64,000 nt of DNA from assembly GCA_945957605.1 (NCBI GenBank), contig CAMFLR010000003.1:248001-312000 (forward strand), in the 5' to 3' direction. Position 1 is the stretch's first letter. Each line of letters begins with the position of its first letter. The stretch is from an uncultured Isosphaeraceae bacterium (GTDB lineage Bacteria; Planctomycetota; Planctomycetia; Isosphaerales; Isosphaeraceae). Below, piece by piece: positions 8,246 through 44,402 of the stretch. A program made the translations under genes and the position numbers. Under the pieces are notes generated by a model. That model saw nothing but the letters and a program-made list of their open reading frames with translations, had not been told where the DNA came from and did no database searches.

Positions 8246-8282
8246 GACCTAAACACTCTCAGCCCGGAAGGGAGGCTGCTGC

Positions 8283-8756: not shown

Positions 8757-8763
8757 CCGACCC

Positions 8764-9249: not shown

Positions 9250-10154
9250 CGGCCAAGCCGCCGCGCTCGTTTTTCAGCGGCGGCGAGCTTCGAGGTGTGA
9301 TCGTTTTCGCGGTCATCATGGCCGTGGGTTGGCCGGTGATTCTGAACTACGCGCGCCCCAAGCAGCGCGAGCCCGAACCCCCGCCCAAACTCGATCCTCG
9401 TCCGCTGCAGCCTGACAAGGGGATCGAATTCGATCGCCTCGTCGATAAGACGCCCCTGGGCGCGCGCGATAACGCAGCCTACAAAATCCTGCTCGAGCGT
9501 GCGCGAAAGACGCCGCAAAGCGAGATCGCCAAGGTCGCGCGGCGCGACGTGATGTACACCCAGCTCTGGGACAAGCCGGAGCTCTATCGCGGTGTGCCGA
9601 TTCATCTTGAGGGCACGATGCGCAAGGCGCTCGCGCACGAGCAGGTGAACCCGGAGCTGGTGCCTGGCGGCCGCGTCGTCGAGTGCTGGTTCTTCACGCG
9701 CGAGGCGAACCAGCTTCCGCTCGTAGTTATGGTGGAAGACCCGCCCCCCGATATGGTGATCGGCTCAGAGATTTCGGAGCGGGTGATTATCGACGCTTAC
9801 TTTTTTCGAAATCTCCGCTACCTCGCCGGCGATGCTCCGCGTGCCGCACCTTTGTTTGTCGGCCGGCTGCGCTGGGCGGACGCCAACGTAAAAACGGGTG
9901 CGAAGGCGGATGCCGGTGCCGAGGCGAAACCGTTCTGGCAGAGTCCCGTCGTGCTCGTTGGTGCGCTGGTTGTGCTTTATGTGATTCTTCGTTTCACGCT
10001 GACGATTCAAAAAGCACGCCGGCCGATTGTCGCTCGATCTGGGCTGCTCGCCGATTCGAAGCCAAGCGAAGAGATCTCGAACGAAGATCTCACGAACTAT
10101 TTTGCATCGATTCCCGACGAAGAGGATAATCAGGGAATCGACCCCAAGACCTAG
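9246..10154 (+). CDS. Membrane protein of unknown function in the ExbBD operon
   Basis: A 302-residue protein starting at a GTG that overlaps the stop of the second ExbD gene. It has an N-terminal helix ('LRGVIVFAVIMAVGWPVIL', about residues 15-33), a periplasmic domain, and a C-terminal helix ('VVLVGALVVLYVILRFTL', about 230-247) followed by a cytoplasmic acidic tail. The domain between the helices includes 'YRGVPIHLEGTMRKAL' and 'PLVVMVEDPPPDMVIGSEISERVIIDAYFFRNLRYL', which looks like an OB-fold or small beta-barrel, but I do not assign a family. Tight coupling to ExbB/ExbD suggests it is an accessory subunit of that energised complex. Confidence 0.75.
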   Translation: MTAKPPRSFFSGGELRGVIVFAVIMAVGWPVILNYARPKQREPEPPPKLDPRPLQPDKGIEFDRLVDKTPLGARDNAAYKILLERARKTPQSEIAKVARRDVMYTQLWDKPELYRGVPIHLEGTMRKALAHEQVNPELVPGGRVVECWFFTREANQLPLVVMVEDPPPDMVIGSEISERVIIDAYFFRNLRYLAGDAPRAAPLFVGRLRWADANVKTGAKADAGAEAKPFWQSPVVLVGALVVLYVILRFTLTIQKARRPIVARSGLLADSKPSEEISNEDLTNYFASIPDEEDNQGIDPKT

Positions 10155-10180
10155 CGGAATCCACCTGCGAGGAAAAGCCG

Positions 10181-14400: not shown

Positions 14401-14581
14401 TCTCTACTGGGACGCTGTTTCGCTGGTGATGGCCGGCAAAACGAAGCTCATTCTCGACCCGGATAAAAACAATCGTCGCCGGCACGTGATCTTGCCCGAG
14501 ATCCCGTTCGCGCCAAGCCTTGATATGCTCGCAACGCCCGTCGGCCCACCGTCGCCAACTGGCCCGTTACGCACACCTTGA
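11450..14581 (+). CDS. P1B-type heavy-metal ATPase fused to an HflK-like SPFH domain
   Basis: A 1043-residue protein with two unrelated parts in one frame. Residues 1 to about 680 form a P1B metal-transporting ATPase. It starts with a His-rich stretch (about 1-38) instead of a CxxC HMA domain, then membrane helices, actuator 'SLTGEPLPV', metal-site CPC at 303-305, phosphorylation site 'FDKTGTL' (D347), 'SKHPLA', and 'GDGINDAPALAQAQVGIALAG'. The helix usually holding the second metal-site motif reads HQCGS (His 645), which is not the Cu or Zn type. At about residue 699 a new membrane helix starts ('MRWKLLAAGAVVAVLVLY'), followed by an SPFH/HflK domain ('GLLQRGGRYLGTLEPGLHLRWPAPFESV') to the end. 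GAGGTGA precedes the ATG. Two SPFH genes follow. Substrate is unknown. Confidence 0.9.
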   Translation: MHREFDPDDMHHLRAHAFGDDGQAPGVPLHDHRHRGPIGLTLVLGLLLAADLLFGVLGLPQLRAPFGISLALLAALIGAAHIVYHALEALFARRIGADIALAQACIAALIIGEPFVAAEVVFIALLGEVLEAFTFSRTQKEIHRLLEQAPKTARVRRDGDEFDIPAAQVLVGDVVIVAEGERIPVDGPIIAGRSTIDQASLTGEPLPVDRGPGDAVYSGTVNQFGRIEIKAERVGHETTLGQVIELVADAQGKKAPIERTADRYARYFLPVVEAVTIVTVIAGLLLGWPDVWYRAVAVLVVACPCALVLATPATVLAAMAWLARHGILIKGGVALERLASCDTFAFDKTGTLSLGKPELGSIVALPGWTETEVLRLAATAERGSKHPLAIVIAHAAAEQELEPFPASNAQALPGLGVSVHWRAVGDAPDAAPHTILVGNRRLLEERGVPIDDDALAALSSVDHRGETPVLVAVDQWVVGVITARDRIRREAHEVIQDLKDLKISEIAVLTGDRLSAARMVAKKVHISTIEVELLPAGKAEWIAERQAAGRKVAMVGDGINDAPALAQAQVGIALAGMGADLAAEAGDIVVLGEPLVVLPNLVKLSRATVRIIRQNIIIFAFGLNALAMASASLGILGPIAAAVLHQCGSFLVLLNAMRLLWFGDWGSTPVGKLLKGLRGSVASWDEGVDLSGIGIALAMRWKLLAAGAVVAVLVLYATSGWVAIESDELGLLQRGGRYLGTLEPGLHLRWPAPFESVTRVAPARVRSVKVGFRSEDVVAVPNRAGGWARSTGEPIARAEDEALVMTGDGQLVEVTVVAQYHLDTKSDALRRHVFFVKDIDESLRSLLESSLRGAVGRQSLDGLLTRDRQNVEKATAAEIQARADAYGFGVLVDRVSLQSVHPPRPVAEVYHDVSRAESDRARKLIEGKTYGLESSKQATGTASVKTTSAEIERSRAKTRAEGEADAFISKVIARAALPGLTDHRLYWDAVSLVMAGKTKLILDPDKNNRRRHVILPEIPFAPSLDMLATPVGPPSPTGPLRTP

Positions 14582-14631
14582 GGCGCCCTGCGGCCTCATT
14601 GTTTCCGATATTTGCGATTGGGAGTTTGTGG

Positions 14632-15612
14632 ATGCGTCGTCTGGGTCGTCTTCTATTTCTGCTCGCCGCGACCGGCCTGGTCATTTTCCTGTTCGCGCGA
14701 TCGATCGTGGTCGTCGACGAAACGGAATATGTGATCATTACCGAATTTGGCCGTCCAGTGATCATTTACGGTTCGCAAGAAGGCGACAGCGGTTTTCATT
14801 TCAAATGGCCGTGGCGTTCGGTGCGTCCCGTCGATCGTCGCCTCCGTGTTTTTGATCCGCCGACGCGTGAACTGATCACGAGCGATAAGCGCAACCTCGA
14901 AGTTTCGAGCTATGTCGTCTGGCGCGTCGTCGATCCCGATCGCTTCGTTCGTTCGGCCGGCACGCTCGAAACGGCGGAGGAACGCTTGAGCGAACGAGTT
15001 TCCGCTGCGCTCAGTCATTTGATGGGCACGCGCGAACTCGCGTCAATTGCCTCGACCGATCGCAAGGTCTGGGCCCTCGATACATTAACGTCGGAACTCG
15101 TGAAAACGCTTGCACCTCCAGCCAAGGACGAGCTTGGCATCGAACTCGTCGACGTCCGTTTGCGGCGATTCAACTTCCCCGTCGAAGTCCGTCCCGCCGT
15201 TTTCGACCTGATTCGTAGCGAGCGCAAGCAAGTCGCCGCCGTGCTCCGAGCCGACGGCGATGCGCAATATCAGGTGCTCATCAGCCAGGCCGATCGCGAG
15301 CGAGATGGCATTCTCGCAAAGGCCGAGGCCGACGCCGAACGGATCAAGGGGCAGGGGGAGGCCGAGGCGATGCGCGTGCTCAATGAAGCACACGGCCGCG
15401 ACCCCAAGTTTTACGAGTTTCTCCGCACGCTCGAAACCTATCGCTCGATTCTCGACGACCGTGCAACCGTCATTCTCTCGTCTGCCAGCCCGCTCTTGAA
15501 GTTGCTGATTCAAGGGCCCGGCGAAGATCTCCTGCGCGACACGCCGCCCGTCCCCCCCGCTCCCGAAGCGAGTTCCGGCGAAAAAATTGCCGCGCCTGGG
15601 GAGAAGAAATAA
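14632..15612 (+). CDS. SPFH/band 7 protein, HflC-like
   Basis: A membrane-anchored SPFH protein of about 326 residues from the ATG at 14632, chosen because GGGAG lies eight bases upstream. The frame is open upstream to a TTG overlapping the previous stop. The N-terminal helix 'LFLLAATGLVIFLFARSIVVV' is followed by 'DETEYVIITEFGRPVIIYGSQEGDSGFHFKWPWRSVRPVDRRLRVFD', an HflC-like start, and later 'KQVAAVLRADGDAQYQVLISQADRERDGILAKAEADAERIKGQGEAEAMRV', the long coiled coil typical of HflC/HflK. In the known E. coli system HflKC cages around FtsH control protease access. Here the partner is the ATPase-SPFH fusion and the third SPFH gene, so a hetero-oligomeric membrane assembly is inferred. The tail is Pro/Ala/Gly rich. 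Confidence 0.88.
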   Translation: MRRLGRLLFLLAATGLVIFLFARSIVVVDETEYVIITEFGRPVIIYGSQEGDSGFHFKWPWRSVRPVDRRLRVFDPPTRELITSDKRNLEVSSYVVWRVVDPDRFVRSAGTLETAEERLSERVSAALSHLMGTRELASIASTDRKVWALDTLTSELVKTLAPPAKDELGIELVDVRLRRFNFPVEVRPAVFDLIRSERKQVAAVLRADGDAQYQVLISQADRERDGILAKAEADAERIKGQGEAEAMRVLNEAHGRDPKFYEFLRTLETYRSILDDRATVILSSASPLLKLLIQGPGEDLLRDTPPVPPAPEASSGEKIAAPGEKK

Positions 15613-16532
15613 TGACCAGGCGCAAGCTGCTTGGCGGATTTCTGGTCGTCGTTGCCGGCAGCATCGGCGTGCTCGCGAGTGGAATCGTCACCGTCGGTCC
15701 CGGCGAAGTGATCGTCGTCCGGCGTCTCGGTCGCGTTCTCTCCGACTCGTGGGGACCAGGGCTGCATCTCGGCCTACCGCGAGGGCTTGATCGATACGAA
15801 CGCCTGCGGCTCGAAGAGGTGCGCAAGATTGAAGTCGGCCTCGCGGGACTCGCCGGACCGAACGACGATCCCGGCGCGGGCGAGTATCTCACTGGCGATC
15901 TCAATCTGCTTCGTACCCGCGCTGTCGTGCAATATCGCGTGTCCGACCCGCTTCGTTTCGTGCTCGCCGCCGATCGTCGCGACGACATTCTCGACCGACT
16001 CTGCGAAGCATCACTCGCGCGAGTGCTCACGCGAACGCGCATCGATGGCGTGCTTCGTGACCAACGCCCCGAGGTCTCGGCCGAACTGCTCAGCGACCTT
16101 GAAAAACGTGCGTCTCAATATGGCCTGGGCGTGCGGATCATGGGGGTGAGCCTGACCGACGTGCAGGTGCCAATCGAGGTTCAGCCCGACTTCGCAGCCG
16201 CACAAACGGCTCTAAGCGATAAGGAACGCCGCCAGTTTGAAGCGAAAACGCGTGCAGAAACAATGATGATTGCGGCGAAGGGCTCGGCGAAGGCGATCGA
16301 CGAAACTGCGCGATCCGAAGCGAGGCGAACGGTCGAGCTTGCGAACGCTCGCGCGAGCCGGTTCATCGCGATTCTGTCCGAATTTCAGCGTGCCCGAAGC
16401 GCGACCGCGAAAGGGCTGTACCTTACAGCCATTCGCGACATGACAACGCGGGTCCGCCGGAAGATTGTCACTCCCGACGAACCCGTCGATCTCAGCGTGA
16501 TTGGCGGCGAACGACCTGCCGGCTCGCGTTGA
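15612..16532 (+). CDS. SPFH/band 7 protein, HflK-like (third SPFH member)
   Basis: A 306-residue protein whose ATG overlaps the preceding stop by one base (TAATG), which suggests coupled translation. One N-terminal helix ('LLGGFLVVVAGSIGVLASGIV') and an SPFH domain ('VGPGEVIVVRRLGRVLSDSWGPGLHLGLPRGLDRYERL', then 'LLRTRAVVQYRVSDPLRFVLA', 'RIDGVLRDQRPEVSAELLSDLEKRASQYGLGVRIMGVSLTDVQVP'). An Ala/Glu/Arg coiled coil follows. It resembles HflK more than HflC. The three-gene run ATPase-SPFH, SPFH, SPFH is tight and therefore likely one operon. The gene ends only six bases before the convergent peptidase gene, with no visible terminator between. Confidence 0.88.
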   Translation: MTRRKLLGGFLVVVAGSIGVLASGIVTVGPGEVIVVRRLGRVLSDSWGPGLHLGLPRGLDRYERLRLEEVRKIEVGLAGLAGPNDDPGAGEYLTGDLNLLRTRAVVQYRVSDPLRFVLAADRRDDILDRLCEASLARVLTRTRIDGVLRDQRPEVSAELLSDLEKRASQYGLGVRIMGVSLTDVQVPIEVQPDFAAAQTALSDKERRQFEAKTRAETMMIAAKGSAKAIDETARSEARRTVELANARASRFIAILSEFQRARSATAKGLYLTAIRDMTTRVRRKIVTPDEPVDLSVIGGERPAGSR

Positions 16533-20958: not shown

Positions 20959-22347
20959 TCAATTCGCCTTCTTCGCGGTCGGAACCACGGTCATCGTATA
21001 AAAGCTCATGTCGGGTCGCGCGTCGGGCAGATTGACGCGGATCTCGTAAATCCGGTCGGCAATCAACGGCTGCGCGAGCGCTATTGTAACAGAAGTACCA
21101 TCCGACCCGCGCTCGACTGTTTGAACGGTGAGCGTCTCCTCATCCTTCACCGAAGAATAATATGTTCCCGAAAAGACGTGATGGAACCGGCGCACGCGGT
21201 ACGTCTTCGCCTCGGCGACGTCGTTTCGAGCCTTGATCGAATCGAAGAAATCGATGCGAAATCCACCGGGGATCGCCTTCACCTCGCGAATGCCGAACGG
21301 CCGCTTGCCATCGTACGCAACTCGATAGATAGCGCCCTGCTCGGGCTCGCTCCCCCAGGCCGACTCGCGCATGTTGCCCACGTAAAGCGAGCCATCAGGA
21401 GCGAACGTGAGGCAAACCGGTCCCAGAAGTCCGTCAAGAAACGGATAGACGGCTCCTTGCGTCGTGCCGTTCACCTCGTCGAGGCTGGCGCGAAGAAGAA
21501 ACTTGTTATTGTATTCGCACAGGATGATCTGGCCATCAATTGGCCCGAACTTGCCACCTGCGTTCACGAAGGTCATACCGTTGACCGACCGCGCCCAAGG
21601 GTAGGGGATACGAATCGTCGGCGTGACGTAGGATTGTTCGCGAGTTGAGGCGACGTCAGCCTTGCTCGGATAGCCGTACCAACCGCCAGGGACGAGCCGG
21701 TTGATCTCGCACGACGTTTTTTGCTGCCCCTGGTTATCGGTGAAGAAGATCGCGCCGTCTGCGGGACGCGCGGCCCAGCCGGTCACGTATCGCAGGCCGT
21801 CGGCAATGATCTCCTCGCGACCATCGGCTGCAATATGCACAGCCTTGCCCCGCAGGTAATGACGCCCTTGCACGTCTTTCGATCGCACGTCATCAGTCGC
21901 CGGGGCGACGATCCATCCCCCCTTGGGCCAGGGGACGATGCCGGTCGTCCAGTCGTGGTGATCCTTGGTGACGTCCCACGCGTCGCTGACCGTGCGCCAA
22001 CGTTCGGCCCAGCCGTCGTGGTCGCGATCGCTGAGTCGCAACAGCGCAGATTTGGTGGAGACGAGCAGGTCGTCCCCTTCGGCCATCATGCCAAGCGGCC
22101 AATGAGGCAGCGTGCCGGCCCAGCGATGAAGCGAGTCGGGAATGCCGTCGCTGTTGGTGTCGCGAAGCTGAAGGATATCGCCATCCATCGAGCCGATGAC
22201 GATCGTGCCGTTGGGCTGGGTTGTCATGCAGCTTGGCAGGACGTCGGCGGCGAGGTTGAGACGCCTCGCCGTATAGCCGATGGAGGGAGGAGCGGCGGCG
22301 ATAAGAAGGGGCAGCATAAGAATAGGCCAGGCGGTTCGCATACTCAT
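20959..22347 (-). CDS. Secreted beta-propeller (sorbosone dehydrogenase/NHL-like) protein
   Basis: A 462-residue exported protein. Signal peptide: 'MSMRTAWPILMLPLLIAAAPPSIG'. The body looks like a six-bladed propeller of the sorbosone dehydrogenase type common in planctomycetes, with 'DVLPSCMTTQPNGTIVIGSMDGDILQLRDTNSDG', 'YVTGWAARPADGAIFFTDNQGQ', 'GGWYGYPSKADV' and 'PVCLTFAPDGSLYVGNMR'. Two calcium-loop-like stretches are seen ('DTNSDGIPD', 'DRDHDGWAE'). No heme c motif (CxxCH) is present, unlike longer relatives, so electron transfer by this protein alone is unlikely. Downstream of the secreted gene at 22356 and upstream of trmB, spaced by a few bases. The substrate is unknown. Confidence 0.75.
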   Translation of the reverse strand: MSMRTAWPILMLPLLIAAAPPSIGYTARRLNLAADVLPSCMTTQPNGTIVIGSMDGDILQLRDTNSDGIPDSLHRWAGTLPHWPLGMMAEGDDLLVSTKSALLRLSDRDHDGWAERWRTVSDAWDVTKDHHDWTTGIVPWPKGGWIVAPATDDVRSKDVQGRHYLRGKAVHIAADGREEIIADGLRYVTGWAARPADGAIFFTDNQGQQKTSCEINRLVPGGWYGYPSKADVASTREQSYVTPTIRIPYPWARSVNGMTFVNAGGKFGPIDGQIILCEYNNKFLLRASLDEVNGTTQGAVYPFLDGLLGPVCLTFAPDGSLYVGNMRESAWGSEPEQGAIYRVAYDGKRPFGIREVKAIPGGFRIDFFDSIKARNDVAEAKTYRVRRFHHVFSGTYYSSVKDEETLTVQTVERGSDGTSVTIALAQPLIADRIYEIRVNLPDARPDMSFYTMTVVPTAKKAN

Positions 22348-22355
22348 TACCCCGA

Positions 22356-23216
22356 TTACTTCTCGCCTTTTGTTTCACGCTCGATTGCAGCCTTGATCGC
22401 TTCGCGGAGGTCGGTGTGGATCCACTCGCCTTTGTTGGTATTGAACTCGTAGAGATGCCCGTCTTTTTCGATTTTCACGTCGTTATAGCCGACGACAGGC
22501 TCAGCATCGAAGCCTTCGGGCAGTTCGAGCACTCCCCACTTATTCGCGACGGTGCCGAAGGCATAGACATAGCGACCGTCGCGATAGGCCAGCACGGTGT
22601 TTCCCATAATGGGAGTCATCGCGCCGGAGTGAGGTTGTTTCAGGTCCTGGCTGTACCACTTGTGTACGTTGGGGATGTAAACATCGAGTCGCTTCAGCTT
22701 GGGGGCGTCGACGACCAAAGCAAACATGGCGCCGTTGTTGGTCCAGTTAATGCTGCGCGGTAAACCATCCTCCGCGGGAAAGCGAACAGTCGCACTTTTA
22801 CCAGGCCGGGGGTATATGGCGAATACTGTGAAGGAGTCGTTATTTGCCGATGTGACATAAACGACGTCACCCACGTGCCTGTACCGTGGCTCACCTGGCT
22901 TGCCGCCGAAGTTTCCCTGATTTGTATATCTACCCTGCGGTCCGCCGAACCCTCCTCCGAAGCCGCCGCCGTTCCCGCCCCTTCCCACTCCTCCGGATCC
23001 GCCAGGAGGAAAGCCAGGTCTTTGTTGCTGCTGCGCGAGGTTTTGCATCTCCCGTTGCCGCTGCTTCATTGCATCCTGCACGCGTTGAAATTCCTGACCC
23101 ATCAGGGCTTGTCTTTCTGCGTCAGACTTCGGCACAGCCGGGTCCTGAGCTTGCGCCCAAAGCACACCACCGAACATAACAAATGCAACAAGATTGACTT
23201 GTAAGGTTTTCGTCAT
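22356..23216 (-). CDS. Secreted protein with Gly-rich region, unknown function
   Basis: A 286-residue exported protein. Signal peptide: 'MTKTLQVNLVAFVMFGGVLWAQA'. Residues about 35-70 are Gln-rich and helical, about 68-105 Gly-rich ('GGNGGGFGGGFGG'), and the C-terminal domain from about 110 has beta-propeller-like 'GDVVYVTSANNDSFTVFAIYP', 'LAYRDGRYVYAFGTVANKWGVLELPEG' and 'KIEKDGHLYEFNTNKGEW'. I do not recognise a named family. It is first in the minus-strand run 22356-20191, eight bases before the next start, so it is very likely co-transcribed with the propeller protein and trmB. Confidence 0.7.
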   Translation of the reverse strand: MTKTLQVNLVAFVMFGGVLWAQAQDPAVPKSDAERQALMGQEFQRVQDAMKQRQREMQNLAQQQQRPGFPPGGSGGVGRGGNGGGFGGGFGGPQGRYTNQGNFGGKPGEPRYRHVGDVVYVTSANNDSFTVFAIYPRPGKSATVRFPAEDGLPRSINWTNNGAMFALVVDAPKLKRLDVYIPNVHKWYSQDLKQPHSGAMTPIMGNTVLAYRDGRYVYAFGTVANKWGVLELPEGFDAEPVVGYNDVKIEKDGHLYEFNTNKGEWIHTDLREAIKAAIERETKGEK

Positions 23217-32308: not shown

Positions 32309-33040
32309 TCAGATGTCCGTCTGCGGGTCGAACGATTGAAATCGCGCGGTGACGTTTTGGCCCGCGACGATGAGCGAGCCGAAGAGATCTTCGCGCGGCA
32401 TGAAGTCGATCATCGTCCAGCGCCCGGGTTCATCGGGATCGTCCACAACCCGCAAAAGTCCTGGCGGCGAATTCGGATGAACGCCAACATCAAAGCTTTC
32501 GAGCGAACGGGATAATCCCTGGCCCGTCGCCTTGATGAACGCCTCCTTACGCGTCCAAGTGCGGAAAAACCCAGGCAGCTTGACGTCGGCTTCAAGCTGA
32601 GCGAACGCCGCACATTCCGTTGGCGAGAAGAATCGCGTGACCAGGGCTTCGAAGTCGGTAATCTCGCGGACCTGTTCGATGTCGATGCCGAGCACGCGAT
32701 TTCGCGTCACGCCGATTGCGGCCATGTCGCCCGAGTGGCTCAAATTGAATTCGAGCGTCGAGGCCATTTCGTGGTGCAGAAACGGCTTCCCTTTGCCTCC
32801 GGCGTCAAAGCGAATTTCGGTGAGCGGTACGTTCAGGAATTGGCTGAGAATCGCGCGCAGACAGCTTCGACCGATGATGAATTGTCGGCGAGCAGGGAGC
32901 GAACGAAACCGCGCAGCCCGCTCGCGTTCTTGTGGGTTGAGCAGTTGCAACAAGCGATCCTGGACGATTGCCGGCTGTTCCAGCGAGATCGTCCAGACCG
33001 ACACTTCGTCATCGCCAAGTTGGCTCGGAAACTGACTCAA
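32309..33040 (-). CDS. Sfp-type 4'-phosphopantetheinyl transferase
   Basis: Activates carrier proteins by moving the phosphopantetheine arm of CoA to a Ser. 243 residues, the Sfp length. Motifs: 'GRSCLRAIL', 'GKGKPFLHHEMASTLEFNLSHSGDMAAIGV', the magnesium-binding 'GIDIEQV', and 'FFRTWTRKEAFIKATGQGL'. Its start overlaps the stop of the preceding CTCGC-protein gene by four bases. It is the last gene of the lipid-NRPS cluster, so its natural substrates are probably the free ACP (36191-36595) and the carrier domain in the condensation-thioesterase protein (33579-36119). Confidence 0.92.
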   Translation of the reverse strand: MSQFPSQLGDDEVSVWTISLEQPAIVQDRLLQLLNPQERERAARFRSLPARRQFIIGRSCLRAILSQFLNVPLTEIRFDAGGKGKPFLHHEMASTLEFNLSHSGDMAAIGVTRNRVLGIDIEQVREITDFEALVTRFFSPTECAAFAQLEADVKLPGFFRTWTRKEAFIKATGQGLSRSLESFDVGVHPNSPPGLLRVVDDPDEPGRWTMIDFMPREDLFGSLIVAGQNVTARFQSFDPQTDI

Positions 33041-33489
33041 TCCGATGCAAGCTCCGCAGAATGTTGCGAGAATTGGGCCTCGTAATTCTTCCTATCAAAG
33101 GTGAAAGTGCCCAATTCTGAATAATCCCAATTGCGATGAACCTGTTCGAATCTTGACCAAGTGACCACGCTCTCAGAAAACTCCATGTGGCACACAAAGT
33201 CCCAGCATCCCTCGCAACCGCAAGTACAAATCAAAATAGCAACTTTTTCATCATGCACAAAGATGCGTCGAGGTTCACCGAGAAAGTGGCGTGAAGGAAG
33301 AAGTGTTGTAGCGACCGAAAGGCTGAGATATTCGCCGGCGACCTCCGGCGAGCCCTCTGACTTAGCATAGGGCGACTCGATACGCTTCAAGATATCGATG
33401 AGTCTATTGCCGTCAATCAGAATGTCGGCGCCGCGGAATGGACCGGTTCCTTCCGTGCCTTCGATGATAAGAATCCTGAGTTCGTTCAT
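33037..33489 (-). CDS. Conserved-looking small protein with a CTCGCEGCW motif
   Basis: 150 residues. The stretch 'VAILICTCGCEGCWDFVCHMEF' holds five cysteines in a short span (CTCGCxGC), which could bind zinc or an iron-sulfur cluster. The C-terminal part 'VVTWSRFEQVHRNWDYSELGTFTFDRKNYEAQF' looks like a defined domain. I have seen similar hypothetical proteins but know no function. It sits inside the lipid-NRPS run between the condensation-thioesterase gene and the phosphopantetheinyl transferase gene and overlaps the latter by four bases, so co-expression is likely. It may be an unrelated passenger. Confidence 0.7.
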   Translation of the reverse strand: MNELRILIIEGTEGTGPFRGADILIDGNRLIDILKRIESPYAKSEGSPEVAGEYLSLSVATTLLPSRHFLGEPRRIFVHDEKVAILICTCGCEGCWDFVCHMEFSESVVTWSRFEQVHRNWDYSELGTFTFDRKNYEAQFSQHSAELASD

Positions 33490-33578
33490 TGGAGCAGAGA
33501 ACAGGGATCGCTCACCAAGTTCAAGACGCCAAAGGCTCAGCGATCAGCGCTTGTGGTCAGGCAAGCGTTACTTGATTA

Positions 33579-36119
33579 TTAGATCGATGCAGCGATGACC
33601 TGATCCACAGCATGTTCAGCCGCTGTCTGTGCACGCAACAGAGCCGATTGCAAGTAACTCGCGAGCGTCCCCAAGTGCGGCTGCTCGACCATTTGCATGT
33701 GGCCGCAGAACAGGTCGAAAACCTCGACGCCTCCCAGGGCCGATTTTCCCCAGCCGCCCTTCGCGTCGCAGTTGATCGCCAGGCCACCGTGCCGCGCGCG
33801 GAAGAGCGAAAGCGGTCCAGGATACGGCGTCACCTTGTATTGATCAAGCGCCTTCAATGCGGTGGTGATCGACTTGAGCCGATGTTCGGCCGAGTTCCAG
33901 TCGCGTCGACCGGCCACCCAGACGAGCGCAGCCTTGCGCAGAAAGAGCGGTAAATGCTCGTTGCGGCGAATCGCCCACGTCACGCGATCGAAGATATAGC
34001 GACAGCGCTGTTTGAAATCAAGCTGTGCCATCATGAACAATTGACGGCTAATCTTGTCTCGAAGCGTGATCTTCACGTCGGGGCCGGGGTGGTCGAGAAT
34101 CGCAAGAAACGCGACCGTTTCGCCGACCGCCGTCAGTCGCTTGGCCATCTCATAGGCGATCAACCCGCCGAACGAATGGCCCGAAAGGTAGTAGGGGCCA
34201 TCGGGTTGAATTTCGCGGATGGCTCGCAAGTAGACTTCCGCGAGCTCCTCAACCGTTTCCGGTCCATTCGCCCCTTTGCTTCGGGGACTTTGCAAACCGT
34301 AAAGCGGTTGATCGAGACCAAGAACATTTTTGAAATGTGAGAACGTGAGCACGCCGCCACCGCCGCCGTGCACGCAGAAAAACGGTGGGCGTGAGCCTTC
34401 GGCCTGAATCGACACCAGTGAGGCCCAGCAAGGGGCGTCGTCACCGTCGGCGATCAACTGGCTGAATTCGCGAATCGTCGGCGCGTGCAGGAGCGCTGTG
34501 AGTGGCAGCTCGCGGCCGATCTCACGGCCGATTCGTTCGATCAACCGCGCGGCAACGAGCGAATGGCCGCCGACTTCAAAGAAATTGCTCGCCGGACCAA
34601 GAGGCTGGATTTCGAGCACCTGTTCCCAGAGCTCGATCATCCGCCGTTCCAGCTCGTTTCGCGGGCTGTTGGATTGATTTGGAAAACCTTCGGCTGAAGC
34701 GTCGAGTGGCGAAATCGCACTTGTGTCGAAGTCCTGCGCCGGCAATTCGCCAAGCGATTTCTCGGCGTTTTGGAGCAGCCAGATGAGTCGCGTCTGGAAG
34801 CGAGCGACAAAGCGATCGATCGCCCCTTCGCTCCAGAAATCGGTCTTGGCGTCGAAGAATCCGCGATAGGCGTTTTCGTGCGATTCGATGAACAACGCGA
34901 GATCGAAGTTCGACGTTTGGTTGGAAACGTCCTCATAGGTCGATTCGATTTCGGGCAGTTCGAGTTGCAGCGACGTTGTGTTCTGGAGCGAGAACAGGCA
35001 GCGCGCCAGGTTCGTGTGATTGAGGCCGGGCAGCTCGGCGATGTTCGCGAACGGCACGTCTTGATGCGAAAACGCCTGCCTGGTGACGCCTTCGACTTCG
35101 CCTACAAATCTGCGGAACGTTCCGAGGTCGGCAAGGTCGAGCCGAACCGGCAGGAGGTTGTTGAAGTAGCCAAGCACCCCGCGAGTCGCAGCTCGATGGC
35201 GGCCCGAAACAGGGGTGACGATCACAAGGTCGTCTTGCTCGGTATCGGCATGCAGCGAGATGGCGAGGGCGCTCAGAAAGACGACATAGGGCGTCACACC
35301 GGCGTCGCGGGCATAAGTATCAATCGCGGCCGAAAAGCTCGCGTCGAACTGCACGGGCTTGCGGATTCCGTGATAGCTCGGGGCTGTCCGCGGAGTGCGA
35401 TCGGTTGGAAGACGCAGGTCGGGGACGCGAGTTGAGAAGACGTTGCCCCACACCGCCTTTGACGCGGCCATCAACTCATCGTGCGGGCTCGGCTCGAGCC
35501 TGCGCATCGCTTCGGGGTAGGGCAGGCGGTCCGTACGCGTCGACGTTGAGTTGCCATCGATTCGCACGCTGTATTCGCGTGCAAGTTCCTGGACGAACAG
35601 GCCAATCGACCAGCGGTCGGCCATGATGTGGTGCGTTACCACGATGAGAATATGTTCGCGGTCGGATCGTTCGACGAGCGTGAAGTGCCAGAGTGGCGCG
35701 GCGGAAAGATCGAACAACCGGCTGGCGGCTTCCGTCTCGATACGAGCAAGCGCGGCCGGCCATTCTTCGGCGGTGATTGCGCGGGCGTCGATGCGATCGA
35801 CGGCTTGGCCGATGGTTTCGTCGAACTTGTGCCGCGGGCCTTTCGAATCGGCCACGATCGATGCGCGGAAACTTTCGTGACGCGTGGCGACTTCGCGGAT
35901 GGCGGCGACGAGGGCGTCGGCGTGAAGTTGGCCGGTCAACCGATATGCGATCGCGATGTTGTAAACCGGCGAGTCGGAGTCGAGACCGTGGATGCGCCAA
36001 AGTCTGAGTTGGCCGGTCGAGAGGGGGCACTCCGTGTTTTGCTGCGCGCGTTCGCGGAGCAAACGGGCCAGAAGCGCACGCTTGTCGGTCGCTTCGGTGA
36101 TGGGGGGCGAAAGTTCCAT
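33579..36119 (-). CDS. NRPS: condensation domain, carrier domain, thioesterase (no adenylation domain)
   Basis: 846 residues. Condensation domain at about 30-450 with 'HHIMADRWS' (His163-His164, Asp168; the usual Gly after Asp is Arg here), plus 'VTPVSGRHRAATRGVLGYFNN' and 'SHQDVPFANI'. Carrier domain at about 490-555 with 'FFEVGGHSLVAARLIE' (Ser520). Type I thioesterase at about 575-830 with 'GHSFGG' (Ser649), a probable Asp676 and His807. No adenylation domain exists here, nor elsewhere in the cluster, so the acceptor amine or alcohol must be delivered by another enzyme or be a free molecule. The N-terminal 'DKRALLARLLRERAQQ' could be a docking helix. Predicted to condense the acyl chain made by the FAAL/ACP and release it. 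Confidence 0.93.
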   Translation of the reverse strand: MELSPPITEATDKRALLARLLRERAQQNTECPLSTGQLRLWRIHGLDSDSPVYNIAIAYRLTGQLHADALVAAIREVATRHESFRASIVADSKGPRHKFDETIGQAVDRIDARAITAEEWPAALARIETEAASRLFDLSAAPLWHFTLVERSDREHILIVVTHHIMADRWSIGLFVQELAREYSVRIDGNSTSTRTDRLPYPEAMRRLEPSPHDELMAASKAVWGNVFSTRVPDLRLPTDRTPRTAPSYHGIRKPVQFDASFSAAIDTYARDAGVTPYVVFLSALAISLHADTEQDDLVIVTPVSGRHRAATRGVLGYFNNLLPVRLDLADLGTFRRFVGEVEGVTRQAFSHQDVPFANIAELPGLNHTNLARCLFSLQNTTSLQLELPEIESTYEDVSNQTSNFDLALFIESHENAYRGFFDAKTDFWSEGAIDRFVARFQTRLIWLLQNAEKSLGELPAQDFDTSAISPLDASAEGFPNQSNSPRNELERRMIELWEQVLEIQPLGPASNFFEVGGHSLVAARLIERIGREIGRELPLTALLHAPTIREFSQLIADGDDAPCWASLVSIQAEGSRPPFFCVHGGGGGVLTFSHFKNVLGLDQPLYGLQSPRSKGANGPETVEELAEVYLRAIREIQPDGPYYLSGHSFGGLIAYEMAKRLTAVGETVAFLAILDHPGPDVKITLRDKISRQLFMMAQLDFKQRCRYIFDRVTWAIRRNEHLPLFLRKAALVWVAGRRDWNSAEHRLKSITTALKALDQYKVTPYPGPLSLFRARHGGLAINCDAKGGWGKSALGGVEVFDLFCGHMQMVEQPHLGTLASYLQSALLRAQTAAEHAVDQVIAASI

Positions 36120-36190
36120 GGGACGCCAGCTTCCGGTTGAATCATCACGCTTGCAAATCGCCGCAAGCGGTCGGGGGGATTTGCGTTAGT

Positions 36191-36595
36191 TCACTTCGAT
36201 TCGCCGAGGTACTGGCTGAGCAGGCTGTCGACGTCCTGATCGCTAAGCATGTCGAGCTCTGCGAGCAGAGCGGCGGCGTCGCTGGCGGAAGAGTCGGGTC
36301 GGATGGCAGCGGGTGCGGCCGGAGCCTTTGTTTCCGGCGTTTGTGTAATGCGATCGTCGAGATGGGCGGACAGCGTTTCGATGCTGGGGTAATCCCATGC
36401 GAGTGTGGGCGAGAGGCGGACGCCGAGCTTGGTTTCGAGGTCGCCCACCATCGTCATCGCCTGTACGGAGTTCAAACCGAAGTTAAGAAACGTTTGCGCA
36501 GGATCGATGGTCGAGGGCGCGACACCCAGCTCGGTGCCGAGCCATTCGATTAACCATGTTTTCATCGACGCGCTAGGTTGCGGAGAAACATTCAT
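36191..36595 (-). CDS. Free-standing acyl carrier protein
   Basis: A 134-residue protein with an ACP domain at about 10-85: 'WLIEWLGTELGVAPSTID', then the carrier motif 'LNFGLNSVQAMTMVGDLETKLGVRLSPTLAWDYPSIETLSAHLDD', where the Ser in 'LNSVQA' takes the phosphopantetheine arm. An Ala/Pro linker and an acidic C-terminal extension ('LLAELDMLSDQDVDSLLSQYL') follow, which is a usual helical docking tail in PKS/NRPS carrier proteins. It stands between the FAAL/dehydrogenase gene and the condensation-thioesterase gene, as expected for the carrier that receives the fatty acid from the FAAL. Confidence 0.92.
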   Translation of the reverse strand: MNVSPQPSASMKTWLIEWLGTELGVAPSTIDPAQTFLNFGLNSVQAMTMVGDLETKLGVRLSPTLAWDYPSIETLSAHLDDRITQTPETKAPAAPAAIRPDSSASDAAALLAELDMLSDQDVDSLLSQYLGESK

Positions 36596-36630
36596 GTTTA
36601 TCTCGTAAGCGAAATATCGTCCGAAATCAA

Positions 36631-39600
36631 TTATGCCGATAGCTCTGTGGCTATTTTCGCACGCAACAGCGCGGCGAGTTGTTCTCGACGTGAAGGAGTG
36701 CTGGCAGACGGGGCCGTCGGCTGACTGATTTTGGAAACTTGTTCCTCAGGCTGGGCGTTGCCGGGCAAGTTGGGGTTGAGGAAGGGGTTGAAAGCAGCCG
36801 GTTCGGGGTCGCGAACAAGGAACGGGTCGACCCAATCTTCCTCACCAGGCAGCGTTTGCTCGACATCTCCAATATCCGAAGCATACGCCGCAATCGTCTC
36901 GCCAAGAACGTCTTCCGTTGCCATCAGCCGTTCTTCAGGGCGTCCCTTGCGGGCGAGTTGCACAGCGCGAGCGTAGCGTAGCTCAACCCAGAGTAGGGAC
37001 CGTTTGTTTTCGTTGCTGGGATCGTTGCGATACGCCTCGCGAATCGCCGCGAGTAGCACCGCCTCGGACACAACCTGGCCAACAAGCCAGTCGGTCCAAA
37101 GCTGGGTGGTTGTCACATCGACGGCCAGGCTCGGTGCGTTTTTGCAGCGTTCGGCTGCTTCTGTCGCGATCGCCGCGATCGACTTTGCAAGGTCGGCCCC
37201 TTCGGGCGTCCCATTCATGTACGCGTCGATCGTCCTGTTGTGCCGCGCGGCTCGACCAATTTGAATCGTGAGCGGTTCGTTTGGCCCCTCGCCGACGCTC
37301 AAAGCGCGGGCGTCGCGGAAAAGCTGGGGTGCGATGTTGTTTTCCATGTACCCACGACCGCCCAGCAATTGCAAAAGCTGGCCGCTCGCCCAGTTCAGTG
37401 CTTCGGTTGTAAGAACCTTCGCACACATCGGCAGTTCCGGCGGAACAGGGGAATTCTGGTCGTATCGTGCGGCGATTTGATTCGCCAGCGCCTGAAGCGC
37501 GGGGATCAGAGCCGTCAACTCGCTGAGAACCGCGATCGACGACGGATTACTCGCGAGCTTGCCAGAAGAGATTGTACGCCGTTTGGCGTATCTTCCAACA
37601 AGCTGGGCGCACCGTTTCAGTCCGCCGATGCACGCTGCGCTGATGCAAAGCCGCCCGTTTGTGAGCACATTTTCCGCAACCGCCATCCCTTGCCCGAGTT
37701 CGCCCAGCACATGCTCGGGACCAACCTCGACGTTGTCGAAAATCAACGAATTCTGAACGCTCGCGCGAAGGCCCATCGTGAGTGCTTCGGGGCCGACGCG
37801 AAGACCAGGCGTCCCCTGGCGAACGACGAAGCCCGTCATGCCGCCGAGCCGGCCCTTTTCATCAACCAAGCGCACAAACACGCTCACAACGCCTGCCCAC
37901 GAGCCGGAGTTCCAGCGTTTGAACGCACGAATCGTCCAGCCGCCCTTGCCGTTAGGGACCGCCTGGCCGACCATGCCGCCGAGGTTTGAACCTGCGGCCG
38001 GTTCGCTGAGCGCGAATGATCCGAGCTCGCGACCGCTCGCCAGCATCGGCAGCAATTCGTCGCGCAGAGCGGGCTTGGCGTGCTGCTGAATGGGAATCAA
38101 GCCGTTCGAGACGTTCAGGAAAACGATCGCCGCGAGCGTAAGGTCGATGGCCGCGAGTTGTTCGAGCACGCGGAGGGCATCGACATACCGCAGGCCGAGT
38201 CCACCGTGCGAATCGGGCACGCGAATGCCCATCACGCCGCGGTTGCCGAAGTCCATCAAGATATAAGGCGGCACGCACCGGCGTTCATCCATGATGCGTG
38301 AATTAATGCGCTCACTCGCATACTTGCGAAGCCAGGCGATCAGTTCATCGGCCCGCTGGCGGCTCACTTCGGGCGTGGCGTATTCGCCAATGGGGAGCGG
38401 AGCAGGCGCGATCGGCCCTTGCGGCTTCAGCTCAGTCGCACGCGCGATGGGGGCACGCCAAGAGCCGAGAATGCGCGGGCCGGTTTCGTCGAGGAATTCA
38501 CGGCAATTCTGCCGTTGAATCTTGCCGCTCGCCGTCTTGGGAATGCTGCCGCGCGCGAGCAAAATGAACGCGTAAACGTCGAGTTCGTGCGATTCGGCCA
38601 CTGCGCGCCGGACGGTTTGCAGCAGCATCTCGAAATCGAGGCCAGACGCGTGTTCGCGTTCGAGTTCCTGCGCGATGACGAGCCGTTCTTCACCTTCGAC
38701 GACCATCGAAAACGCCGCGCCGTTTTCGGGACGAAGTCCCGGATGTGCGGCCTGCACGGTCCATTCGATATCCTGCGGATGATGGTTCGTGCCGCGGATG
38801 ATGATCAGATCCTTGATTCGCCCGCAGACGTGCAACTCGCCGTCTTTCAGGAAACCAAGGTCGCCGGTACGGAGGAACGGACCTTCGTTTGTGTTGGCGA
38901 TGCGTGCCTGAAAGATCGCCGCCGATTCTTCGGTGCGGTTCCAGTAACCCTGGGCAACGTCGGCACTTTTGACCCAGATCTCGCCAACCTCGTTGCCGCA
39001 TTCGCGCCGGGATTCGGGGTCGACGATCGCCACGCGCGTTTCGCCGAAGACGCGGCCGCAGCCAACGACCAGCCGCGCGTCGTTATTTGATGAGGCATCG
39101 GCGATGTGGTGCTGTTCGAGGGCATCGGCGTCGAGTCGCGAAATGGCGGGCGGCTCATCGACGGGATTCGACGACACGAGCAGCGTCGCCTCGGCGAGTC
39201 CGAACGCGGGGCACATCGCCCTGCGATCGAATCCGTGCGGCTCGAACGTGCGAATGAACGCTTCGGTGACGTTGGGATGAATCGGCTCGGCCGCGTTGCC
39301 CGCGGCTTTCCACGAGCTGAGGTTGAGCCCCACACGCTGTTCGGGCGTGATACGCCGCACGCAATGGTCGTACGCGAAATTCGGCGCCTGGCTGTGCGTG
39401 CCGCGATACTTTTCAATCGCCCGCAGCCAAACAATCGGCCGTTTCACGAACGCAATCGGCGACATGATGTAGCACGGCGTGCCATTGTGAACCGGTTCGA
39501 GCAAGCCTTCAACCAGGCCGTAGTCGTGGAAGTTGGGCATCCACGTGACGGTGACGCTGTTTTCGTCGTAGCGGCAGAAGCGCTGAAGCTGACCAAGATG

Positions 39601-40170
39601 ATGCAGCACGTTGCGATGGCCGATCATCACACCCTTCGGAGTCGACGTCGAACCCGACGTGTACTGCAAATAGGCGAGCGGATCGGCACTGAATCGCGGC
39701 TCGCGCCAGTCATTCGCATCACGAAGATTGATCTCGTCGGTGGTCAGCCAGCGCAGCTTGCGCGACTCGAACAGCGGGTCGTCAGCCGCTTCGATCAAGG
39801 CGCGAATTTTCGCGGTGGTAACGACGAGCGTTGCGTCGGCGTCATCAACAATCGCGCGGAGCCGAGGTCCGGTGCGTTTGAGCCGCGATGCCTCGGGCGG
39901 AGGTGTGGGAATACCGATGACGTCGGCAAACAGGCAGCCGAAAAAGCCGGTGAGAAAATCGAGCCCGGCCGGAAAGAGGAGAAGCGCTCGTTCGCCAGGA
40001 CGACTGATCTCGCGCAACCGCGCCGCGAAGGCACGCGCCTGCGTTTCGAGCGAAGCGTAGTCGAATGATCCAGCTTCGTTCACACCATCTTCGAGATAGG
40101 TAAACGCATGCCGCGCTGGCCACTGCTCGGCCCGGGATCGCAGAAAATCGACGAGGTTATGCTGGGTCAT
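36631..40170 (-). CDS. Fatty acyl-AMP ligase fused to an acyl-CoA dehydrogenase
   Basis: About 1179 residues from the ATG at 40170, which overlaps the P450 stop as ATGA. The N-terminal half (about 1-590) is a fatty acyl-AMP ligase: P-loop 'YTSGSTSTPKG' near 170-180, 'TWMPNFHDYGLVEGLL', 'SPIAFVKRPIVWLRAIEKYRGTHSQAPNFAYDHC', and 'TGDLGFLKDGELHVCGRIKDLIIIRG'. It should activate a fatty acid as adenylate and load the ACP. The second half (about 610-1010) is an acyl-CoA dehydrogenase: 'GSFALSEPAAGSNLGGM', 'LGELGQGMAVAENVLTNGR', 'GGRGYMENNIAPQLFRDARALSVGEG'. It should oxidise the carrier-bound acyl chain to the alpha,beta-enoyl form. The C-terminal 'RREQLAALLRAKIATELSA' could be a docking helix. 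Confidence 0.92.
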   Translation of the reverse strand: MTQHNLVDFLRSRAEQWPARHAFTYLEDGVNEAGSFDYASLETQARAFAARLREISRPGERALLLFPAGLDFLTGFFGCLFADVIGIPTPPPEASRLKRTGPRLRAIVDDADATLVVTTAKIRALIEAADDPLFESRKLRWLTTDEINLRDANDWREPRFSADPLAYLQYTSGSTSTPKGVMIGHRNVLHHLGQLQRFCRYDENSVTVTWMPNFHDYGLVEGLLEPVHNGTPCYIMSPIAFVKRPIVWLRAIEKYRGTHSQAPNFAYDHCVRRITPEQRVGLNLSSWKAAGNAAEPIHPNVTEAFIRTFEPHGFDRRAMCPAFGLAEATLLVSSNPVDEPPAISRLDADALEQHHIADASSNNDARLVVGCGRVFGETRVAIVDPESRRECGNEVGEIWVKSADVAQGYWNRTEESAAIFQARIANTNEGPFLRTGDLGFLKDGELHVCGRIKDLIIIRGTNHHPQDIEWTVQAAHPGLRPENGAAFSMVVEGEERLVIAQELEREHASGLDFEMLLQTVRRAVAESHELDVYAFILLARGSIPKTASGKIQRQNCREFLDETGPRILGSWRAPIARATELKPQGPIAPAPLPIGEYATPEVSRQRADELIAWLRKYASERINSRIMDERRCVPPYILMDFGNRGVMGIRVPDSHGGLGLRYVDALRVLEQLAAIDLTLAAIVFLNVSNGLIPIQQHAKPALRDELLPMLASGRELGSFALSEPAAGSNLGGMVGQAVPNGKGGWTIRAFKRWNSGSWAGVVSVFVRLVDEKGRLGGMTGFVVRQGTPGLRVGPEALTMGLRASVQNSLIFDNVEVGPEHVLGELGQGMAVAENVLTNGRLCISAACIGGLKRCAQLVGRYAKRRTISSGKLASNPSSIAVLSELTALIPALQALANQIAARYDQNSPVPPELPMCAKVLTTEALNWASGQLLQLLGGRGYMENNIAPQLFRDARALSVGEGPNEPLTIQIGRAARHNRTIDAYMNGTPEGADLAKSIAAIATEAAERCKNAPSLAVDVTTTQLWTDWLVGQVVSEAVLLAAIREAYRNDPSNENKRSLLWVELRYARAVQLARKGRPEERLMATEDVLGETIAAYASDIGDVEQTLPGEEDWVDPFLVRDPEPAAFNPFLNPNLPGNAQPEEQVSKISQPTAPSASTPSRREQLAALLRAKIATELSA

Positions 40171-41555
40171 GCGCGTGCCTCGCTTGTTGTGGTCGAGGCG
40201 GCCGGTTGTGGCTCCCGCGCGATGAACTGGTAGCTCTCTGACGGGGCGATCAGCGTGCCGTGCCGTACTGGCTTCACGGGGCCGGTGTGCGCCGGCGTGA
40301 GTCGGCCCGATTCGACGATCCGCGCCAGGACAATCCTCATTTCGACCGGCGCTAGCACTGCGCCGATGCAACTCCTCGCGCCGCCGCCAAATGGGAAGAA
40401 TTCGTGCGATCCATATTCGCGATCGAGAAACCGCTCGGGCATGAATCGGTCGGGCTCGGGGAAGAGATCGGCGCGGCGATGGACAAGGTGAGTGCAGGGC
40501 AGCAGCGTTGTGCCGGCTGCGTACTGCCGCTCCTGGATTTCGGTATCAACCAGCAGCTTGCGGCCCGTGGGCGTCGCGACGACGGGATACATTCGCAACG
40601 TCTCGAGGCAAACAGCGTTGAGGAAAGGCAGATTGGCGGAACTCCGCCCGCCTTCGCCAAGCTCGCGCTGAAGGCGGCCGAGCACGTCGGGGTTGTCGTA
40701 GATCCAGTAGAGAGCCCAGCTCAGAGCGATCGCCGTCGTGTCGACGCCGGCAACGAGCATTGTGAAAATATGATCGGAGATCTCTTCGTGCGACAGCGAG
40801 TTGCCAGCTTCGTCGCGGCCGTGAATGAGAGCGTCGAAGAGGCAAGCGCGTTCGGTTGAACCGGTCGCGCGGCGTGCTTCGGCCTCGGCAGCAATGAACT
40901 CGCGGAGCAGAGGCTTGCGGTGAACGAATCGCGTCCACGCGCTCAATGAACCGAGATCGACGTAAATCTCATTCGCGAAAACGTCGGCGATTTTCTGCGC
41001 TGTCGGGTTGAGCCCTGAACCGAACACGATCCCGAGAATCATCCGCAACGAAAGCAAATGCAGCGACAGCCGCGGCGAGAAGACAACGTCGCGCGGCCAC
41101 GACTCGCAGGTTGCGTCGATGAGCGGCTGAAAATCGTCGAGCTGGCGATCGAACGACCGAGGCTGGAGCGACGGAAGAACGAGACTGCGCATCCGGCGAT
41201 GGCTCGCGCCGTCGGCGAGGAGAATCGACCGCTCGCCCATCACGAACTTGTAATAGTCGTTGTAGGGGCGGCATTCGTACGACGACGTCGGCAGGCCGAA
41301 GATTTGCCGGACGGCGTCGGGATGGCTGAAAAGGACGGTCGTGCCGATCGAGCCGAGTTCGACTGTACAGACATCGCCATAGCGCGCGCCTAACTCTTCC
41401 CAGAACTCGACGGGGCGTTCCATCCACATCCGGGCGACTGCGTTACTCTCCAGTCGAGGCCCGTCGGGCAGGTTCAGTCGATTATTGGGCGCAACAAGCG
41501 GCGTCAAGGCGAGCGTCCTCGGTTCAGTGTGCTTGGTTATGCCACAATTCGGCAA
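40167..41555 (-). CDS. Cytochrome P450
   Basis: 462 residues at most. The heme-binding loop is intact: 'FFPFGGGARSCIGAVLAPVEMRIVLARI'. Also visible: 'LVAGVDTTAIALSWALYWI' (I-helix, Asp-Thr-Thr pair), 'ETLRMYPV' (ExxR) and 'PDRFMPERFLDR' (PERF). No membrane anchor, so a soluble bacterial P450. It is first gene of the lipid-NRPS run, overlapping the FAAL/dehydrogenase start by four bases, so it probably hydroxylates or otherwise oxidises the fatty chain. Redox partners are not nearby. The start is uncertain: TTG at 41555 is used here without a clear ribosome-binding site, and a later start is possible. Confidence 0.9.
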   Translation of the reverse strand: MPNCGITKHTEPRTLALTPLVAPNNRLNLPDGPRLESNAVARMWMERPVEFWEELGARYGDVCTVELGSIGTTVLFSHPDAVRQIFGLPTSSYECRPYNDYYKFVMGERSILLADGASHRRMRSLVLPSLQPRSFDRQLDDFQPLIDATCESWPRDVVFSPRLSLHLLSLRMILGIVFGSGLNPTAQKIADVFANEIYVDLGSLSAWTRFVHRKPLLREFIAAEAEARRATGSTERACLFDALIHGRDEAGNSLSHEEISDHIFTMLVAGVDTTAIALSWALYWIYDNPDVLGRLQRELGEGGRSSANLPFLNAVCLETLRMYPVVATPTGRKLLVDTEIQERQYAAGTTLLPCTHLVHRRADLFPEPDRFMPERFLDREYGSHEFFPFGGGARSCIGAVLAPVEMRIVLARIVESGRLTPAHTGPVKPVRHGTLIAPSESYQFIAREPQPAASTTTSEARA

Positions 41556-42962: not shown

Positions 42963-44402
42963 TCAGGCGCTTCCGGTCACCGTCTTCAAGTCTGCGCGTT
43001 GTGCTTCGTAACTCGTTTGATATGCGAGTACTTCCGGATCGGCCTCGATACCCCACGTTTGGCAGGCCTGGCGATAAATCGACGGCCACCAGTTGTCGTG
43101 CTGGGTGAGGCCGGTGTCGCGCACCTCGGTCCAGTTGCTTGTAATGCGAGTCCAGCATTTGTCGCCGTAGTCGAGAGCATCCTTCCAGTTGCCAATCGCA
43201 GGGATGTACCACTCGCGGCCGATTGCCGCGTGCAGCACTTCGTCGGCCCAGTCGAAGTCCTGGATCGTCGCCATCAACGGGTCGCCCGATGCCACGCCGA
43301 CTTCCCACTCGTATCGCTTGCCTGTCTTGGCCATCAAGCCTTGCTCGATGAAGTAGAGCACGGCGTGCCGCTCGATCGGCGTGCACTCGGTGTTGAGGCG
43401 GAGCGACCAGTTGTGGGTGATCCGCGCGACCGTCCAGTCGACCCCGTTCGCGACGAATCCCACCTCGCCCATCATCGCATGCCGCGCCTCGTCCCAGAGC
43501 TGGCGGGTCATGGCCGCGTAGTAATCCCAGGGCTTGTCGGGCGTTTCGTGGATGATGCTGGCCATCATCTCGGGGACGTCGATTTCGCGCAGCCGCTTGA
43601 ACAGCATCATCAAAGTTTTGGCGCGCGCGGGAAACGCTGGGTCGTAGAGAAACGCTTCCGGATTCACCCCTTGATTGTAGAGGTCGACAAATCGCTCGTC
43701 GCGTTTGGGGATGCGGTCGTAAACGTAAGGTGTTTTAGAATATGTGGCTTCGACCGATCCTGCATCCGCTGCCGGTTCCTCGCCGCCGAGTCCGCCCGCT
43801 TGCTGAAGAGCGAGATTGAGACGATCAACCCACGGCTGAATCTTCGTTCGATCCGCTTCGGTGATCAAGCATTCAATGCACTTCTGGCCGAACGCGATCA
43901 TGTCGGCGACTTCGAGCAGCGCGAATCGGCAAACACGTCTCGAAGGGGCATCAGTCAGCGGGTTTGTGTCGCTTTGGTAGCGACGGAGCGAAGCTTCGAG
44001 TGCAGGCAGCACGGTTTCATAGAGCCCGACGAGTAGCTCGAGCGTCGTCGGCGCTGCCAAAATCTCGTCGAAGACAAGCGCGAGCATCGGGTGCGGCACT
44101 ACTTCGAGCCCAAGCGGCGGTTCGCGCATTTCGCCAACGCGAGTCCGTAGCGCTGTTACGTGTTCGGTGCAGAGGTAAGAGTGATGCGAGAAACCGGACT
44201 TCAGCTCGTAAATCGGCTCGGCGGTGATTCGTGCGTTGAAGATCTCGTGCAGCCGACGGAAGACATAGTGAAACCGCTTCAGCCGATCGACCGCCGCCTC
44301 AATTCCCAGGCCGGGCCGCGATGCTTCCTCGAACGCGGCTAGCCCAGCCAGCGGCGGCAAACCTTTGTACGACTGATACTTATGAGACGCGTTCTGATCC
44401 AT
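42963..44402 (-). CDS. Ferritin-like diiron protein of unknown function
   Basis: 479 residues. Two Glu-x-x-His elements ('DEARHAMMGE' near 315 and 'DEVLHAAIGREW' near 395) and helices with extra Glu residues ('PEMMASIIHE', 'IERHAVLYFIEQ') point to a four-helix carboxylate-bridged diiron site. Upstream helices (about 30-250) contain many His and Glu. It resembles large ferritin-like proteins of unknown role common in planctomycetes and acidobacteria. The neighbour msrB fits oxidative-stress function, but an oxygenase role is equally possible. It is also about 1.4 kb upstream of the P450 cluster, though STAS and msrB genes separate it. Confidence 0.75.
   Translation of the reverse strand: MDQNASHKYQSYKGLPPLAGLAAFEEASRPGLGIEAAVDRLKRFHYVFRRLHEIFNARITAEPIYELKSGFSHHSYLCTEHVTALRTRVGEMREPPLGLEVVPHPMLALVFDEILAAPTTLELLVGLYETVLPALEASLRRYQSDTNPLTDAPSRRVCRFALLEVADMIAFGQKCIECLITEADRTKIQPWVDRLNLALQQAGGLGGEEPAADAGSVEATYSKTPYVYDRIPKRDERFVDLYNQGVNPEAFLYDPAFPARAKTLMMLFKRLREIDVPEMMASIIHETPDKPWDYYAAMTRQLWDEARHAMMGEVGFVANGVDWTVARITHNWSLRLNTECTPIERHAVLYFIEQGLMAKTGKRYEWEVGVASGDPLMATIQDFDWADEVLHAAIGREWYIPAIGNWKDALDYGDKCWTRITSNWTEVRDTGLTQHDNWWPSIYRQACQTWGIEADPEVLAYQTSYEAQRADLKTVTGSA

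Follow-up and report, generated by a model that had tools for sequence, protein, structure and literature searches.

How can an NRPS-type operon that holds no adenylation (A) domain join an acyl chain to an acceptor? The question is raised by six genes on the minus strand (41555 to 32309) of a 64,000-nt stretch of DNA from an uncultured Isosphaeraceae bacterium (the window), which were assigned by ORF and domain searches as follows:

40167..41555, (-) strand: cytochrome P450, 462 aa from a TTG, true start uncertain; heme motif FGGGARSCIG; PF00067 (E 3e-61)
36631..40170, (-) strand: fusion of a FAAL and an acyl-CoA dehydrogenase (FAAL-ACAD), 1179 aa; PF00501 and PF02771/PF02770/PF00441
36191..36595, (-) strand: free acyl carrier protein (ACP), 134 aa; PF00550 (E 2e-15)
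33579..36119, (-) strand: condensation-carrier-thioesterase (C-T-TE) protein with no A domain, 846 aa; PF00668 (E 1.5e-64), PF00550 and PF00975
33037..33489, (-) strand: CTCGC protein, 150 aa, motif CTCGCEGCW; no family match
32309..33040, (-) strand: Sfp/HetI-type 4'-phosphopantetheinyl transferase (PPTase), TTG start; PF01648 (E 9e-19) and AASDHPPT_N

The coordinates and domains of six same-strand genes given in a preliminary description held up, and the domain roles it named were supported. The overlaps it mentioned are confined to two junctions (P450/FAAL-ACAD and CTCGC/PPTase), of 4 bp each, and the remaining gaps measure 35, 71 and 89 bp. Specifically, the FAAL-ACAD gene starts at the ATG at 40170, not at the TTG at 40371, and overlaps the P450 stop codon. 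Beyond the six genes, the next neighbours encode a sulfatase, a STAS protein, MsrB and one protein without assignment. A 479-aa protein encoded upstream of the cluster (window positions 42963 to 44402) had no Pfam or NCBIfam match.

The gene-order search that the preliminary description had proposed revealed that the core order recurs. We found P450-FAAL-ACAD-ACP-(C-T-TE), on one strand and in identical order, in two further genomes of the family, the Planctomycetales MAGs G016 (DAHZZC01) and G017 (DAIDKV01), and on a cyanobacterial plasmid, Cy782201 of Gloeothece verrucosa PCC 7822. The P450 gene comes first in all three loci (37 to 38% identity), and the window and Gloeothece carry FAAL and ACAD as one fusion protein (48% identity), whereas G016 and G017 encode them by separate genes. 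The C-T-TE relatives, all full-length and A-less (841 aa in G016 and 834 aa in G017), are ~29 to 37% identical to the window's protein; that of Gloeothece shows 29% identity to the window's protein and 36% to those of G016 and G017. In Gloeothece, the C-T-TE gene is directly followed by a second, separate ACAD gene (L050, positions 21393 to 23012), whose product shares 42% identity with the ACAD half of the window's fusion and perhaps serves a second desaturation.

Searches of the three other loci matched neither the CTCGC protein nor the PPTase, so the conserved unit comprises five functions rather than six genes: by this comparison, P450, FAAL, ACAD, ACP and the A-less C-T-TE form the core, with the small protein and the PPTase outside it. 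The CTCGC protein matched no Pfam, NCBIfam or PHROG family, and its gene, located between the C-T-TE and PPTase genes in a local dip in G+C content, looks like a later insertion; the protein probably plays no role in the cluster's function. The PPTase (180 bits against the HetI model, under the cut-off of 370) is predicted to be able to prime both the ACP and T.

Among 45 genomes of the family, a close ACAD (E ≤ 1e-140) and a full-length C-T-TE protein occurred in the same three genomes only, and a fourth ACAD match (in G001) was distant (E 3e-66). Searching at the level of the order yielded these same 45 genomes, in keeping with an order that consists of one family. A scan of genome contigs returned only the two related MAG loci. 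Across 392 genomes of the phylum, we found no further close ACAD and no further full-length C-T-TE protein, the latter sweep scoring only two candidates per genome, so that members can be missed. The search outside the phylum covered plasmids, where FAAL-ACAD relatives appeared in three records; in Gloeocapsa PCC 7428 and Burkholderia stagnalis, the fusion occurs with other partners.

In a tree of 43 C domains, the four A-less C domains fell on one side of a branch with support of 100/99, present in 100% of bootstrap trees. The C-A-T-TE proteins of the family (~1370 to 1445 aa) do not adjoin FAAL-ACAD genes; where the neighbouring gene is whole, they are encoded beside a large protein with PKS motifs. 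An artefact of assembly or decay was rejected, as the A-less form recurs intact in other genomes. Since two relatives and one cyanobacterium carry this incomplete-looking set of genes in an identical order, it probably represents a working pathway that draws a partner from elsewhere.

The absence of an A domain, which the preliminary description had emphasized, proved real. On the 744-kb contig that carries the window, a PF00501 search found only the FAAL itself and no amino-acid A domain. The best PDB matches of the FAAL half were FAALs (7r7f, 498 bits; 3kxw, 391 bits), as was its best NCBIfam match (PRK05850, 425 bits, under the cut-off of 775), and it scored 152 bits against the amino-acid A domain model TIGR01733, under the cut-off of 317; by these scores, it is a FAAL rather than an A domain for amino acids. 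The preliminary description had named an A domain immediately beyond the cluster as the finding that would speak against a system of this kind; none was found in the window's genome or in the two related loci, and the nearest amino-acid A domain on the Gloeothece plasmid lies more than 100 kb from the cluster. Neither a separate A-T protein nor a shuttle was found in the four loci examined.

Next to this gap, the remaining domains appear complete. The fusion protein consists of the FAAL (~residues 1 to 575), a linker, the ACAD with a long C-terminal extension (~600 to 1150) and a terminal basic helix, and the ACAD base Glu (GEG, E371 of the ACAD half) is invariant across the four loci. The free ACP carries the motifs FGLNSVQAM and WDYPSI, ends in LSDQDVDSLLSQYL, and has a match in the FadD32-loaded N-terminal ACP of Pks13. 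The ends of the ACAD half and of the ACP form similar charged amphipathic helices, and another begins the C-T-TE proteins of the window and Gloeothece; we infer that these helices dock the subunits.

In the C-T-TE protein, the C domain (residues 28 to 459; motifs HHIMADRWS and GYFNNLLP) runs straight into T (~485 to 562, Ser520), with no A domain between them, and T is followed by the TE (~575 to 830; Ser649, Asp676, His807). The HH..D motif of C, the T serine and the TE triad are invariant in all four A-less proteins despite the ~29 to 37% identity, implying that selection maintains a functional T. All four A-less C domains also contain GYFNN, a possible signature of the group, whereas the other C domains compared mostly have G.FVN. 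An AlphaFold model of the protein, built from three sequences, reached a mean pLDDT of 33.5, too low for use.

To type the carriers, we used profile models of PCPs (built from A-linked T domains only) and of ACPs (built from five PKS ACP sequences). The T domains scored 58 to 87 bits against the PCP model versus 10 to 28 against the ACP model, and the free ACPs scored 9 to 20 versus 26 to 31 (20 versus 30 for the window's ACP). These scores indicate that T is a carrier of the type loaded by A domains and that the free ACP is an acyl-type carrier, although a PCP-like ancestry of T, as read from such profiles, does not prove its present cargo.

Among known systems, the acinetin-505 operon of Acinetobacter baumannii (A1S_0112-0119), in which A1S_0119 is the PPTase, comes closest in arrangement. 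As described in the available text of PMC5376624, that operon encodes a FAAL, an ACAD, a free ACP and the C-A-PCP-TE NRPS AB3403 (PDB 4zxh), whose A domain binds glycine, and it shares with the window the order FAAL, ACAD, ACP, an NRPS ending in T-TE, and PPTase. In the same text, FAAL and ACAD are separate proteins and no P450 is described, whereas the window has a FAAL-ACAD fusion, a P450 and, in place of the accessory genes A1S_0116-0118, one small extra gene between the NRPS and PPTase genes. Above all, the glycine A domain has no counterpart in the window's C-T-TE protein or on its contig, and since this defining domain is absent, we do not file the cluster as a member of the acinetin-505 type. 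In a wider tree that included AB3403, the A-less clade received support of 98/69 and AB3403 adjoined it at 84/75; given this modest support and the long branches, kinship is only suggestive.

Other known systems match in part. The last module of SyrE in syringomycin synthesis is likewise an A-less C-T-TE with an intact T serine, which is served by SyrB1 (A-T) and SyrC, so that A-less modules fed in trans are known (PMC8949500). In that case, however, the aminoacyl group is delivered by an A-T protein and a shuttle from the same gene cluster, and the trans-loaded modules in the same review keep their A domain within the gene cluster; at all four A-less loci, it is missing. SyrE also uses its C-T-TE to end a long peptide line, whereas the window's cluster has no NRPS other than its C-T-TE protein. 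Daptomycin-type lipo-initiation (CIII domain), as presented in the available part of PMC9113097, resembles the window in that a FAAL and a free ACP feed a C domain, but there the C domain is the starting point of an assembly line of several modules that include A domains. The sequence holds two features that FAAL-dependent lipo-initiation calls for, a FAAL rather than an amino-acid A domain and a free ACP of the acyl type. Text searches of literature outside subscription turned up no account of an A-less FAAL-ACAD-ACP-C-T-TE cluster. The label of an undescribed biosynthetic system was nevertheless too strong, because the acinetin-505 layout and SyrE trans loading are known; what is new here is a conserved, fully A-less version of the FAAL-ACAD-ACP-NRPS layout.

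How might such a cluster work? Building on the domain identities, catalytic residues, four-locus gene order, A-less clade, lack of a local A domain and PCP-like T, all established by sequence comparison, we give about an even chance to a conserved A-less lipo-initiation operon in which acyl-ACP is condensed onto an aminoacyl-T loaded in trans by a distant A domain. From what is known of these families, the FAAL would adenylate a free fatty acid and load it onto the free ACP, and the ACAD domain would introduce a 2,3-double bond into the acyl-ACP; the P450 may hydroxylate or otherwise oxidise the chain, either while it is carrier-bound or once it has been released. The C domain would take its acyl donor from the ACP and its nucleophile from the PCP-type T of the same protein, T having been aminoacylated by an A domain encoded elsewhere in the genome, and the TE would release the product, putatively an N-acyl amino acid or short derivative that is unsaturated and oxidised. 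Loading in trans is favoured because T is PCP-type and invariant, with SyrE as a precedent, and weakened because no A domain tracks the cluster.

We found no dedicated in-trans A domain for T. The PF00501 search of the window's genome returned 15 places, with amino-acid-type A domains above cut-off on contigs C13, C16, C18 and C20 only. The stand-alone A domain on C18 was rejected as a dedicated partner: it is the only stand-alone amino-acid A domain common to the three related genomes, but orthologs are present in 43 of the 45 family genomes, a distribution that does not follow the cluster and makes its co-occurrence uninformative. It sits in another conserved locus, with an MBOAT-like neighbour in 44 of the 45 genomes. 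The C18 locus (L036, positions 1776 to 8257; also L043 and L044) encodes an MBOAT-like integral-membrane protein, two SGNH-like proteins, the DltA-like A domain and a lipid-A-type acyltransferase, the MBOAT-like and SGNH-like calls having been made by eye and the MBOAT-like protein lacking a Pfam match. No carrier protein was found in the three loci of this type examined, and this nearly family-wide locus is possibly a Dlt-like envelope acylation system.

Two further suppliers considered, an A-T-R protein (C20) and an A-T-hexapeptide protein (C16), have their own T and downstream domains. The C16 protein (L033, positions 6882 to 10895) is 1337 aa long and combines A and T with a long hexapeptide-repeat part. 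The NRPS cluster on C13 includes an 843-aa fusion of a C domain and a TauD-family dioxygenase (L035, positions 13629 to 16160) with neither A nor T.

It is possible, though we lean against it, that the route is adenylation-free on the NRPS side, with the FAAL as the sole adenylating enzyme and the C-T-TE protein linking the modified acyl chain either to an acceptor in solution or to another acyl group. In the first case, a soluble amine or alcohol would be used by C, as in VibH, or by the TE, as in sugar- or alcohol-acylating TEs; T would act as an acyl way-station from ACP to TE, so no A domain would be needed. Every gene that this requires occurs in the four loci, none of which has a nearby A domain, and the T-TE part matches Pks13 ACP-TE, which transfers its acyl group to trehalose. 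The preliminary description had proposed a free amine or alcohol as one source of the acceptor, which is not established: the T serine, kept in all four proteins, and the PCP scores favour a carrier-bound acceptor loaded in trans. The free-standing amide synthase VibH also shows C-domain catalysis without an A domain of its own and matches the window's C domain, but weakly: elongation-type C domains (5u89, Txo2, TycC) score far higher than VibH (1l5a), at 138 versus 34 bits. VibH-type free C domains need no T, and VibH itself has neither T nor TE, whereas the window's protein has both, with invariant catalytic residues. For these reasons, we regard a soluble acceptor as unlikely.

Two acyl chains would be joined if the FAAL loaded both ACP and T, the C domain esterified one chain onto a P450-hydroxylated acyl-T, and the TE freed an estolide or lactone. 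The enzymes of the cluster would suffice, the P450 and the missing A domain would be explained together, and ester-forming C domains are known (PMC8949500). Against this, WDYPSI, which marks the FAAL-partner ACPs at these loci, is missing from T, and the profile scores place T with the PCPs rather than the ACPs. In addition, FAALs usually recognise their own ACP, and this all-lipid scheme seems improbable to us. A decayed operon of the acinetin-505 type, deprived of its A domain and no longer functional, would fit the shared operon logic of A1S_0112-0119, FAAL-ACAD-ACP-(C-A-PCP-TE)-...-PPTase in the available text of PMC5376624, and AB3403 as the best whole-protein PDB match of the C-T-TE protein, but is already largely refuted, and highly improbable, given an A-less form that is intact across two phyla with all catalytic residues kept.

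The source of the acceptor is thus a clean question, posed by a five-function system of ~9 kb that can be tested in vitro. Because A domains are what genome mining relies on to predict NRPS products, a conserved A-less cluster escapes substrate prediction. If T is loaded from another locus, as in the trans-loading model, cross-cluster supply would be conserved across phyla; if T is not loaded by an A domain, the C-T-TE protein would be an adenylation-free NRPS condensation and release machine. The lipid-amino-acid chemistry known so far from planctomycetes, that of the stieleriacines, has been attributed to N-acyl amino acid synthases (PMC12479983), and the A-less cluster would therefore be a second route.
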